Assembly: GCA_949841245.1 (NCBI GenBank)
Contig: CATKYT010000006.1
Location: 1 to 45,492 of the forward strand
Source of the DNA: an uncultured Eubacteriales bacterium
GTDB taxonomy: Bacteria > Bacillota > Clostridia > Christensenellales > UBA1242
Direction: 5' to 3'
Length of the DNA: 45,492 nt
The notes below the pieces were generated by a model. It had not been told where the DNA came from. It saw only the letters and a program-made list of their open reading frames with translations, and made no database searches. Numbering within the stretch: the stretch's first letter is position 1; the number at the start of each line of letters is the position of its first letter. Shown here in pieces: positions 3 through 19,205 of this stretch. The translations under genes were made by a program, and so were the position numbers.

Positions 3-3000
3 AATTGGCAGTTTAGTGGTTGGACAACTTCTTTAAATTCGGCAACGGAAATTTATTCGGGTGGGTCTAAGTTCCGCAATCTTACTGCAAAAAATAACGA
101 CATATTCAATGTTTACGCCATTTATAAAAGAACAGTTTCATTGGTTTATGAAGCCAATGGTGGAACAGGAACAACGGCAAACACCACTGGCACACAATAT
201 GGAAATCTTTATTCTGGAACAGTTGGAAGTTTTGACATTCAAATTGCTTCAAACAATTTTATAAGAAGTGGATATACATTTCTTAATTGGAACTTAAATG
301 CCAATGGCACAGGTGCAAGTTTCACAGCAGGTGCCATCAGTACACAAGGAAATGGGCAACAATTGTGGACAACTTATACTTCAAATGCTACACAAAAATT
401 GATTGCCAACTGGGGTATTGTTGAATACACTGTTACCATTAGACCTTTTTATTCCGACAATGGCGGTGGTAAAGTCAGTTACAAGGCGGGAGTGCCTGCA
501 AAATATACTGTTTCAACAACTGGTGGGTCAAGAACAAATTCTGTTGATCTTACCAGTGCCGAAGCCAAAACTTTAAGTGTTAATGCTGAATATGGGAACA
601 AAATTGTTGTAAATCACAATTTAGATTCTCAATGGCAACTTATGGGAATTTATACATATCAAACAACACCTAATATGATTCAATCCAATCCACAAGTGAC
701 AGTTATGGATGAATCTGACACAAACATATATGTGTATTTTGCACGAAATTCTGAAAATAAATTGAAATACACATCAGATAATGGCGGATATTTCTATTTT
801 GAAGACGGTTATTTCCCACAAAGCATGGTGACAGGCGTTGCCACAAGTGGAACACCAAGCGGAAAAACTTACAACATTGCAGGAACAAACATTGCAAGTT
901 ATATGGTAAATGGACAGGAATATGTCTATGTTAAAGGTGCCGTGTTTAAAGTGGAACCAATCAGATGGAGAATAAGCGAATATGGAACTTCAATAAATAA
1001 TTTCCCAAGTCGTTTTGCTGATTTTGGAAGTTATTACACCAATTTCAGTGCTGTTAGTGATTTGGTTTTGAATGTTGGCAGTGCAATGACAAAAGAACAG
1101 TTTGACGCCAAACAAAAAGACGGCTCTTGGAAAGATTGGAGTATAGCAGATTCTGCATTACCTGCTTTGGTAAGCGGAATAAATGTAAATTATGCTAAAC
1201 CATTTGCACAATCATATGACAAGTTTGGAAGTGTGGGAAATACAAGTGTTGTTTCTGGAACAACGACAGGGGCAAGCAGTAATATTAGAATAGCATCTGA
1301 TTGGGATGTTATAAGTTGCTCTTCCGATTTTAATTGCATGGCAAGTGATTTGGTTAAACATTTGCTTGGATGTGGAACATATGCAAGTTATTGGATGCCA
1401 AATCTGGGCAGTCAATATGGTGCTGGAAAGATAATCACAACCAGCAATCAATTTAAAGACCTATGGTTATATGAACAAGCAGGCGTTCGTTTTGCAATAA
1501 CATTTACTGATGGTGTCAGACATATAGGCGAAAAAGACACTTATCAAGTGATTCTTAAAGATGTTTATAATGGTGCGGTTGTCAAAGTTTACAACAGTGA
1601 TGAAACTGTTTTGAAAGATACTTATACAAATATTGTAAATAATCAAATTGCTTTGAATGTCAATTATGATGATGTTATTGTCATTTCAAATCTTGTTCGT
1701 AACGGTTATGACTTAGGTTCAAATGGTAAGATATTCAGTGTGACAGGAACGAGTGGTAACTCTGGTAATTCTCAATCTGGTTTGGTGACTGCAACCAAAT
1801 TTAGAAACTTAAATGACAATAATGGCAGTGTTAAGATTCAAGTTTTGTGGACTATGACAAACAATGCAATCAATTATTACGACAGATTTTCATTCTCTTA
1901 TAATCATGCGGAAAGAACAGTCAGTGTTCGTGCAGCAAACACAAACATTTCTGGTGAAATTGTCATTCCAGATGTGATTACACACCATACAAATGGATTG
2001 GAATATACAATTACTAAAATTTCTGCAAGTGGTTTCCAAAATTGCAAAAACATTACTTCTGTGATTTTACCTGACACTATTTTGGATATAAGTAGTAACT
2101 CATTCTATGGTTGTTCAAACCTTAAACAAATCAAGCTGTCAAAAAATCTTGTAAACATTAATAGTGGTGCTTTTGACAATTGTATTAATTTGACATCTAT
2201 TTCAATCCCTGCTTCAACAAGAAAAATTTCCAGTGCATTCATGAATTGCACAGGTTTGAATTATGTAAATTTTGAAGGCACATTGAGACAATGGGCAACA
2301 GAAATTGCTTTATCAGCTCAAACTCCAACATTATACAGTAAGAATTTGTATATTAAAAATGAATTGGTTACAAGTGTTGACTTTACAGGAACAAGCATTA
2401 CAAAGATAAATAATTACGCATTCAGAAATTTAACATCAGTGACAAGTTTAAAATTGCCTAACACAGTTGTTTCTATTGGTAAATATGCTTTTGCGGGCTG
2501 TGTGAATATGGCAGGAAATTTTAACACTTCCATCACTCGTGTGGAAGAACGCGGTTTTGATGGTTGTTCTAAACTTACTGGAACAGTTGGAGCATTAAAC
2601 TATATTGACGATTACGCTTTTGTTGATTGTAGAGGACTTACAAGCATAACTTTTGCAAGCAATATTACACAAGTAGGCAATTATGCATTCTTAGGGTGTA
2701 CAAACCTTAAAAACACCACTTTCCAAGGTAATGTTGCACAATGGGCTAGTATATCTTTTTGGAGTGAATTATCAAATCCAGTTATGTATAGCAAAAACTT
2801 GTTTATAAATGGTTCCAATTTGACATCTGTAAATCTTTCGGGAACAGGAATTACAAAAATTGGTGCGCACGCATTTACAAATTTGACAAACATAACAAGT
2901 TTGACATTGCCAACAACTTTGACTCGAATTGAATCTGATGCATTTAGAAATTGTGCAGGAATTACTGGGTCACTTATTATTCCAGACAGTGTAACTTATA

Positions 3001-3434
3001 TTGGATCCAATGCTTTCAGTGGGTGTCAAAGAATTTCTTCCGTTGTTATAGGAAATGGCGTTAAACAAATTTATAGTGATTCATTTAAAGATTGCAGAAG
3101 CATGGTTTCATTGAAACTTGGCAACAGCACAACAGACATTTATTCAAATGCATTTAGATATTGCTATAATTTAAGAAGCGTTTATTTGCCATCAACTGTT
3201 TCCAACATAAATTGTGTTGCTGGTTCAAGTCCTTTCTATGGATGTTCAAGTTTGAAAATTTATTGTGGTGCAAGTTCTAAACCAAGTGGTTTTGATGAAT
3301 ATTGGGATACTTGGTATTATCGTGCTGCCTTTACAGATGCAAATGGTTATCATCCTTTAATCAATTATAAAATCAGTGTTTATTGGGGTTACACTTATTC
3401 CCAATATCAAAATGCAACGGGGGGGGTATTTTAA
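3..3434 (+). CDS. BspA-like leucine-rich-repeat surface protein, 5' truncated by window, frame broken near 3' end
   Basis: The frame is open from the window edge, so the true start lies upstream; 1143 residues are visible. Seen in order: an InlB B-type (Listeria-Bacteroides) repeat at about nt 130-420, a beta-rich stretch, and a region at about nt 760-1510 with FPQS, EPIRWRI and GVRFAITF-type motifs resembling DUF6273. From about nt 1890 to 3290 there are BspA-type LRR_5 repeats of the form I..I...AF..C..L..I.LP. Members of this family are secreted or surface adhesin-like proteins. Two LRR blocks (about nt 2270-2520 and 2715-2960) are near duplicates, each with a QWA...YSKNL motif followed by TSV..TGITKI-type repeats. 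The frame ends at TAA 3432-3434, eight bases after a run of eight G; a conserved-looking tail continues in another frame to 3808. The cell-surface role is inferred from the domains, because the signal peptide lies outside the window. Confidence 0.85.
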   Translation, partial: NWQFSGWTTSLNSATEIYSGGSKFRNLTAKNNDIFNVYAIYKRTVSLVYEANGGTGTTANTTGTQYGNLYSGTVGSFDIQIASNNFIRSGYTFLNWNLNANGTGASFTAGAISTQGNGQQLWTTYTSNATQKLIANWGIVEYTVTIRPFYSDNGGGKVSYKAGVPAKYTVSTTGGSRTNSVDLTSAEAKTLSVNAEYGNKIVVNHNLDSQWQLMGIYTYQTTPNMIQSNPQVTVMDESDTNIYVYFARNSENKLKYTSDNGGYFYFEDGYFPQSMVTGVATSGTPSGKTYNIAGTNIASYMVNGQEYVYVKGAVFKVEPIRWRISEYGTSINNFPSRFADFGSYYTNFSAVSDLVLNVGSAMTKEQFDAKQKDGSWKDWSIADSALPALVSGINVNYAKPFAQSYDKFGSVGNTSVVSGTTTGASSNIRIASDWDVISCSSDFNCMASDLVKHLLGCGTYASYWMPNLGSQYGAGKIITTSNQFKDLWLYEQAGVRFAITFTDGVRHIGEKDTYQVILKDVYNGAVVKVYNSDETVLKDTYTNIVNNQIALNVNYDDVIVISNLVRNGYDLGSNGKIFSVTGTSGNSGNSQSGLVTATKFRNLNDNNGSVKIQVLWTMTNNAINYYDRFSFSYNHAERTVSVRAANTNISGEIVIPDVITHHTNGLEYTITKISASGFQNCKNITSVILPDTILDISSNSFYGCSNLKQIKLSKNLVNINSGAFDNCINLTSISIPASTRKISSAFMNCTGLNYVNFEGTLRQWATEIALSAQTPTLYSKNLYIKNELVTSVDFTGTSITKINNYAFRNLTSVTSLKLPNTVVSIGKYAFAGCVNMAGNFNTSITRVEERGFDGCSKLTGTVGALNYIDDYAFVDCRGLTSITFASNITQVGNYAFLGCTNLKNTTFQGNVAQWASISFWSELSNPVMYSKNLFINGSNLTSVNLSGTGITKIGAHAFTNLTNITSLTLPTTLTRIESDAFRNCAGITGSLIIPDSVTYIGSNAFSGCQRISSVVIGNGVKQIYSDSFKDCRSMVSLKLGNSTTDIYSNAFRYCYNLRSVYLPSTVSNINCVAGSSPFYGCSSLKIYCGASSKPSGFDEYWDTWYYRAAFTDANGYHPLINYKISVYWGYTYSQYQNATGGVF
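3419..3426 (+). repeat. Poly-G tract of 8 inside the coding region
   Basis: Eight consecutive G in an AT-rich gene, just before the stop of the upstream frame. With eight G the reading frame stops at 3434. With nine or six G it would join the downstream frame ending at 3808. Tracts of this type change length by slipped-strand mispairing in many bacteria. Confidence 0.9.
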
Positions 3435-3808
3435 CTGAGTCTGAATTAGAGGAAATGGTTGTTGACCTTGGTGGATATTTGAGTAAATTTGGTGAAGTTT
3501 ATTCAGTTGTAAATAATCCTTCAAACAACAGATATAATTTCTTTAAAGTGCAATTGGTAGATGCAAATGGCAGTTATCTTAGAGATGTATTAAACACTGA
3601 CCAATTGGGGGAAATAATTGTTCAAATTCCAAGTGTTGGAAATCAAGTAAGTGCTTTAATGATTGGTTTCAATGGCAGTACAGTTGACGCTAAACTTTTT
3701 TTAGATTTAAGCAATTTGCCAGTGGGGAATTATTATATAAACATTAAACTTGTACAATTCAATTCGACAGGTGGATCGTTTAAAATTGACTATTTGGTAA
3801 AAGGTTAA
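3425..3808 (+). pseudogene. Out-of-frame C-terminal tail of the BspA-like protein
   Basis: This segment is open in the -1 frame relative to the gene above and encodes 127 residues after the poly-G tract. It begins ILTESELEE and ends FKIDYLVKG. The composition (beta-rich, Asn/Gly/Val-rich, low GC) matches the upstream protein, and it has no ribosome binding site or convincing start of its own; only a TTG at 3383 inside the other frame is available. It is best read as the tail of the same protein, reached only when the G tract has nine or six G. The tail shows no LPXTG motif and no hydrophobic anchor, so attachment to the cell is unexplained. Alternatives are an assembly error in the homopolymer or -1 ribosomal slippage. 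Confidence 0.7.
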
Positions 3809-3813
3809 AATAA

Positions 3814-3845
3814 TAAAAGCAGGGAAAAATCTCTGCTTTTTTATT
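3814..3845 (+). terminator. Rho-independent terminator after the BspA-like gene
   Basis: AAAAGCAG pairs with CTGCTTTT across a short A-rich loop and is followed by a T run. It lies 6 bases after the stop at 3808 of the out-of-frame tail. Its position supports the tail being the true 3' end of the transcript. Confidence 0.85.
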
Positions 3846-18312: not shown

Positions 18313-19137
18313 TTATAATACATTATATCCTAACAATTTGTATGTTTCTTTCAAGAAGTTGGATTCTGTAAATTTTGGAGTGTTGAAATTTATAAGTTTG
18401 ACATTTTTAAATTTTTCTGTAAGTGCTTTTGTGGTTTCAACCTTTTCTTGATTTGTAAAATCTGAATTTGATTTTTTTACAGTTGTGTTTGTTTTCTTGT
18501 TGCTTTCAAAGACATAGATTTCATTAATTTTATCTGCTGTTATGTTATTTTTGTTGGTTAATACCACTTCTTCTTCATGAAAACTGTAAACCCCATCATT
18601 AGCTGCCTTAATTTCGAAATATTGATAACCATTTTTTAACGCAAAGGTTTTTTCTGGCATATATGCTTGTAATAACCATTTATCATTAGTATTTGTTTTG
18701 ATGATCATAACTATATTAATATTATTGTTTGCATCAAACAAATTTATTATAAGTGAATCTTCGTTGACTTCATAGAATAAATAGCCTGTGCCTGTTATGT
18801 TTGTTTCATCTATTTTGTATGTTGCACTTGATGAATAATAGGTGTTTTCTTGTCCGTTTTCTATGCAAAACTTTGACCAAAACAAAATGGCTTTAATTTG
18901 ATGTTCTGAATTGTTGTAAAAATCTGTTGTGTTTGAATTGCTGTCTTTAAATTCTTTTTCACTTATAAATCCTATGTCATAACAAACTGTATTTATCAAT
19001 CCTTTCGCATCAAGTTTGTTGTTTTTAAACAATTTTGAAAGGTATAGCGAACCAAATAATATTGCTGCAATTGTAACAATTGTTACATAGACTGTGAGAA
19101 CAATTTTTCCCACATTTTTTGTTTTTACATTTTCCAT
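18313..19137 (-). CDS. Membrane-anchored extracellular protein of unknown family
   Basis: 274 residues, not recognised. A short basic N-terminus and one membrane segment at about residues 10-34 are followed by a polar domain rich in Asn, Thr and Lys that is predicted to lie outside the cell. No cysteine-based lipobox is seen. A good ribosome binding site (AAGGAG, 5 bases) precedes the ATG. Base composition is even more AT-rich than its neighbours. Its promoter has eight C between the -35 and -10 elements, a layout known from phase-variable surface genes in other bacteria. The combination of an exported product and a homopolymer in the promoter suggests a variably expressed surface protein, by inference. 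Confidence 0.7.
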   Translation of the reverse strand: MENVKTKNVGKIVLTVYVTIVTIAAILFGSLYLSKLFKNNKLDAKGLINTVCYDIGFISEKEFKDSNSNTTDFYNNSEHQIKAILFWSKFCIENGQENTYYSSSATYKIDETNITGTGYLFYEVNEDSLIINLFDANNNINIVMIIKTNTNDKWLLQAYMPEKTFALKNGYQYFEIKAANDGVYSFHEEEVVLTNKNNITADKINEIYVFESNKKTNTTVKKSNSDFTNQEKVETTKALTEKFKNVKLINFNTPKFTESNFLKETYKLLGYNVL

Positions 19138-19178: not shown

Positions 19179-19205
19179 ATGATATCATAGCGGGGGGGGA
19201 GTCAA
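19179..19205 (-). promoter_or_regulatory. Promoter with a poly-C spacer, possibly phase-variable
   Basis: On the minus strand: TTGACT (19205-19200), then eight C (19199-19192), then GCTATGA and TATCAT (19184-19179). The spacer is 15 bases; ten C would give the optimal 17. An overlapping TATGAT (19189-19184) is spaced only 10 bases from TTGACT. Confidence 0.6.

Follow-up and report, generated by a model that had tools for sequence, protein, structure and literature searches.

The window, by which we mean the whole stretch of DNA analysed here, is the entire contig C6 (CATKYT010000006.1, 45,492 nt) of a genome from an uncultured Clostridia-type lineage (G000; GCA_949841245.1; 1,003,652 bases in 35 contigs, 98% complete). 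Its left end is occupied by a gene for a BspA-like surface protein that is interrupted near its 3′ end at a run of eight G residues, and a second homopolymer tract lies farther to the right. The features of interest are:

Positions 3–3434, + strand: open reading frame of the BspA-like leucine-rich-repeat surface protein, truncated on its 5′ side at the contig edge and with its stop codon just past the tract
Positions 3369–3426, + strand: 58-nt block that includes the tract, also kept in the sister species
Positions 3419–3426, + strand: G8 tract, the proposed slippage site
Positions 3427–3808, + strand: out-of-frame C-terminal tail of 126 codons and a stop codon (3806–3808)
Positions 3815–3845, + strand: terminator-like hairpin and T-run (at about 3817–3842), which resemble those of the C18 paralogue and mark the downstream edge of the apparently exchanged tail
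Positions 18,313–19,137, − strand: 274-amino acid gene downstream of the tract-bearing promoter, no Pfam match
Positions 19,192–19,199, − strand: the second tract of the window, C8 in a promoter spacer (TTGACT-15 nt-TATCAT); the sister species has C7 and 16 nt

The BspA-like frame is open at the left contig edge and has 1143 visible codons; the G8 tract follows codon 1138, the stop codon occupies positions 3432–3434, and an alternative C-terminus is encoded in the other frame. The assignment to the BspA-like proteins rests on five stretches that match Pfam LRR_5 (PF13306, TpLRR; E=1.3e-93). The first-pass annotation had this protein ending at 3434 directly after the G8 run, with a coding tail and its own terminator continuing in the other frame, and both statements hold. 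Against the codon usage found in the rest of the window's genes the tail frame scores +39.7 bits and the remaining five frames score −35 to +3, the probability of 126 codons remaining open by chance at the tail's composition is 5e-5, and the hairpin and T-run lie just downstream. There is no further interrupting stop in the upstream 1143 codons or in the tail. A relative of the tail is fused in frame in genome G001 (36% identity), and the C18 paralogue of the BspA-like gene (L047) is open through a G9 tract at the equivalent position. The structure predicted for the window-type tail is beta-rich and of modest confidence (pLDDT 72), and a structure search found no PDB match for it (best hit E=0.13). 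The C18-type tail gives a model with pLDDT 89 and hits to CBM4/CBM22 beta-sandwiches (E about 1e-4) at TM scores of just 0.4–0.45, a weak likeness. The C18 paralogue also has, by eye, a hydrophobic stretch at its N-terminus ahead of a G9 tract located there; the corresponding part of the window's protein lies beyond the contig edge.

The focal tract belongs to a set of about 28 across the genome, roughly half of which lie in promoter spacers, and this amends the first-pass annotation. Counted exactly on both strands, G000 contains five G6, three G7, 14 G8, 11 G9 and three G10 runs and none longer than ten, which makes 28 tracts of eight to ten. The sister species G051 (an uncultured Eubacteriales MAG, contig CATLAM010000003.1; about 89% DNA identity to G000, 95% identity in FtsK) is similar, with 28 tracts of seven or more (three G7, 13 G8, 11 G9 and one G10). 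Within 228 kb (33% G+C) that were read closely, in stretches picked around tracts and hence with long runs over-sampled, a run of three or four is extended by one with a chance of 0.22–0.23 and all runs that attain six reach seven. The distribution of run lengths is bimodal and not that expected by chance, and this gap followed by a peak points to hypermutable, maintained tracts rather than to base composition. The earlier claim that a G8 run is very improbable here is borne out by the genome-wide run lengths; the window by itself is only mildly unusual (the G7 pattern has four matches against a mean of 0.7 in dinucleotide shuffles, a value equalled in one of 100 shuffles). Loss of mismatch repair was considered as a cause of the long tracts and is unsupported, as MutS, the protein on which this judgement is based, is present in 59 of the 61 genomes of the genus set, G000 included.

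By location the G000 tracts fall into promoter spacers (about 12 of the 28 tracts of G8–10, or 14 of 30 when G7 is included), intragenic tracts (about 14) and tracts that precede a start codon (two). TTGAC stands 0–6 nt ahead of the tract in 14 of the 30 G000 cases and 15 of the 27 G051 cases; nearly all tracts of this promoter class have a −10 element at 13–20 nt spacing (13–19 nt in G000), and a Shine-Dalgarno sequence and start codon mostly follow 25–50 nt further on. Genes behind such promoters include those for a NUDIX hydrolase, a radical SAM protein, a short-chain dehydrogenase and a sulfatase-family protein. The pattern TTGAC-N2-6-C7 occurs in 33 of the 61 genus genomes, for which the reversed control gave one match in total, and the promoter geometry recurs in nearly all genus genomes read. 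When the order was searched with C8, matches were found in five of 11 genus genomes, one of six other members of the family and 17 of 231 genomes outside the family; how far the pattern extends past the family is uncertain, since several of those outside genomes match the reversed control too. Tracts of the promoter-spacer kind recur in about half the species sampled from the genus and are rare elsewhere in the order.

Nine of the 14 intragenic tracts of G000 leave their gene in frame and five do not. Tract-bearing coding genes include NUDIX, YdjC, NT5C, inositol-phosphatase, serine-hydrolase, SnoaL and BspA-like genes and some unknowns. The YdjC-family gene (L044:3560-4392) is split exactly at its G8, with profile positions 1–114 and 115–257 in different frames. 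Tracts stand directly before the start codon at L036:4001 and L052:4001 in G000 and also at L086:740, ahead of a BspA-like gene of G001. The poly-G at these three places lies near the expected Shine-Dalgarno position, and a translational or start-site class of tract is possible.

Comparison of the two sister species shows that many of these sites are conserved and that some have changed their state. With a paralogue match left out, the tract is present in G051 at 17 of 30 G000 sites, and its length differs at six of these 17 (8/7, 10/9, 10/8, 8/9, 9/8 and 9/7). Two genes, the L048 gene and one that looks GNAT-like by eye, have a broken frame in G000 and an open one in G051, and the N-terminal tract of the C18 BspA-like gene has the opposite distribution, open in G000 and broken in G051; each of the three has a tract of equal length in both species and small indels in the flanks account for the difference in frame, so it is the frame state that has changed and not the length. 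Both species have the end of the serine-hydrolase gene out of frame, with G10 in G000 and G8 in G051. The NUDIX gene could also be compared in G001 and G002; all four species have the tract at one and the same codon of this gene, which is open with G9 in G000 and G051 and broken with G8 in G002 and G001. Substitutions within out-of-frame parts favor third codon positions (3/1/8, 7/4/21 and 27/14/52), which argues that the break is recent or temporary and that these are not decayed pseudogenes.

We estimate the probability at roughly 85% that the focal G8 tract is a hypermutable slipped-strand site of C-terminal phase variation and that it belongs to a genome-wide set of poly-G/C tracts, with a slower exchange of tails at the same locus. 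The contingency-locus layout proposed in the first-pass annotation is supported by the strong over-representation of G8–10 runs, the retention of orthologous sites in G051 and the variation of lengths and frame states between species. Under this reading, replication slippage at the G8 would gain or lose a G, and the tract length would set the product: a BspA-like protein that ends after the tract, as in the assembled state, or one that extends into the 126-residue C-terminal domain. Coding tracts elsewhere would shift the reading frame in the same way and promoter tracts would alter the −35/−10 spacing, so that slipped-strand mispairing could account for frame and spacer changes together and would require no special enzyme. 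Slippage may well occur at a high rate in living populations and may alter surface binding, and it probably brings a selective benefit through interactions with glycans, phages or the immune system. Some observations count against slippage: tracts of eight to ten are on the short side for rapid switching, mismatch repair looks intact to judge by MutS, and the focal tract is G8 in G000 and G051 alike. Because of the last, a length change at the focal site is seen solely against the paralogue, which has G9; variation of tract length among relatives is seen for the set of tracts as a whole, and at the focal site the two sister species differ in frame state, through the flank, and in tail type.

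It is conceivable that the DNA is of fixed length and that RNA-polymerase slippage or ribosomal frameshifting at the G8 gives a short and a long protein in every cell, since homopolymer tracts can be slippery for polymerases and both reading frames overlap at the tract. However, such recoding would be meaningless for tracts in promoter spacers, about half of all, lengths and frame states vary between close species, and most of the intragenic tracts of G000 are in frame already; we consider it improbable. An incidental G-run at an ordinary frameshift in a decaying pseudogene is less probable still. The frame is broken in the assembly and the gene lies at a contig edge, but neither the 1143 upstream codons nor the tail contains another stop, the tail is coding-biased, and the other tract-broken genes retain their third-position bias and are intact in neighbors.

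Similarly improbable, to about the same degree as recoding, is an assembly or sequencing error that hides an in-frame count and an intact gene. Homopolymers are prone to errors, instrument poly-G artefacts exist (very long G-runs at a contig start of G038 are a case to compare), and tracts are in excess at contig ends in G001 (six against 0.21 expected) and G002 (two against 0.09), an excess not seen in G000 (0 of 28); the count of eight at the focal tract could itself be an assembly consensus. Against this, the same orthologous tract positions are found in independent assemblies, no run in G000 exceeds ten, and the promoter context would be unexpected for an artefact. Even with a count that is off by one, the tract stays a candidate slippage site.

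Returning to slippage as the preferred explanation, the focal locus appears to have undergone a second kind of change. The 58-nt block that ends with the tract is 97% alike between the focal gene and the C18 paralogue, and the other alignable parts of the two genes are 73–81% alike; in the paralogue the block leads through G9 into an open, unrelated and weakly CBM-like tail. At the focal locus of G051 (L088), which has the same neighbors (genes for a deacetylase and FtsK), the block and a G8 are kept and the tail is of the C18 type and in frame, the gene being open at G8 through a difference in the flank. The two G051 copies of this tail, at L088 and at the C18-type locus, are identical over the comparable 127 nt up to the terminator. 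The presence of a C18-type tail at the G051 focal locus and the identity of the copies indicate that tails are transferred from one of these loci to the other, and the simplest route would be a gene conversion bounded by the block and the terminator; either the window-type tail was lost in G051 or it was gained in G000. No silent copies of the window tail were detected elsewhere in G000 at E<=0.001, and in G001 a single open protein carries both tail types. The C-terminal domain that the first-pass annotation regarded as switched on and off is real and joined in a relative, and it is exchangeable and not a single fixed domain. A second, slower process probably acts at this locus as well, in which recombination through the conserved block and tract would replace the tail by that of a paralogue. 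Tentatively, and with somewhat less than even odds, we suggest a two-speed diversification device, in which a slippage tract at a domain junction toggles the C-terminal domain and the same block and tract serve as the joint for domain swaps between paralogues by gene conversion, within a genus of small uncultured Clostridia that has many poly-G/C-switched genes, often with the tract in a promoter spacer.

Sets of poly-G/C contingency loci that span a genome have been described chiefly in Gram-negative pathogens, Campylobacter and Neisseria among them. To our knowledge, phase variation in Clostridia-type gut commensals works by DNA inversion, and in the literature searched we found no report of poly-G phase variation in uncultured Clostridia. 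Several components of the scheme are known already from other bacteria, namely C-terminal phase variation, promoter poly-C spacing, repeat-switched BspA-like proteins and G-tract slippage in a gut commensal. Phase variation of the C-terminus through poly-G tracts is described in Helicobacter canadensis (PMC2823697) and Neisseria gonorrhoeae (PMC5320596), where, as here, the tract lies toward the 3′ end of the gene and its length picks the C-terminus, and those genomes also have promoter and 5′-coding tracts. The present case differs in its host, an uncultured Clostridia-type bacterium, in tract length (G7–10 here, G10 or more in the C-terminal cases of H. canadensis), in that the BspA-like protein loses an entire domain of 126 residues, and in that the tail varies between species and paralogues. 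The combination with tail exchange could make the focal locus a variant of the known C-terminal phase variation.

Promoter tracts have parallels in Neisseria fetA and porA (PMC5320596) and in the C-stretch of the Bordetella fim promoters (PMC1891110), in which a C-run between the −35 element (or an activator site) and the −10 element likewise sets promoter spacing. Here a single 1-Mb genome has about 14 promoters with this architecture, which recurs across the genus, whereas three transcriptional cases are given for N. gonorrhoeae NCCP11945 (PMC5320596). In Candidatus Mycoplasma girerdii, also a small metagenome-resolved genome, BspA-like surface proteins are intact or truncated according to repeat length, and reads showed the length variants (PMC5476646); those repeats are dinucleotides in a member of the Mollicutes, and here they are poly-G/C tracts in a Clostridia-type lineage. 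In the gut commensal Bifidobacterium breve, G-tract slippage switches sortase-dependent pili (PMC9187656), which resembles the intragenic slippage at a surface structure proposed here, although two pilus loci are involved in B. breve and a genome-wide set that includes promoters and enzymes in G000. As far as the literature searched shows, what is new is the lineage of the host, how many promoter-spacer tracts a single small genome holds, and the exchange of tails at a tract. If the switching is real, a group of gut bacteria has inbuilt variation from cell to cell in its surface proteins and metabolic enzymes, which should be readable from existing metagenome reads; it would be easily overlooked because annotation would label the broken genes pseudogenes.

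Three minor observations concern tracts in other contigs and genomes. The first 93 bases of contig C12 of G038 contain very long G-runs, which are probably an instrument poly-G artefact and call for caution in tract scans. Contigs C1, C13, C22, C29 and others of G001 have tracts, often of 10–11 G, within 70 nt of their ends; contig ends at tracts fit mixed tract lengths among the reads and also fit coverage dips at G-runs. Finally, the short-chain dehydrogenase gene is preceded by C8 in G000 (L049:4001) and in G051 (L142), and in G001 (L193) a G9 on the same strand lies in nearly the same place; the occurrence of C8 and G9 so close to one position suggests that the tracts arose independently.
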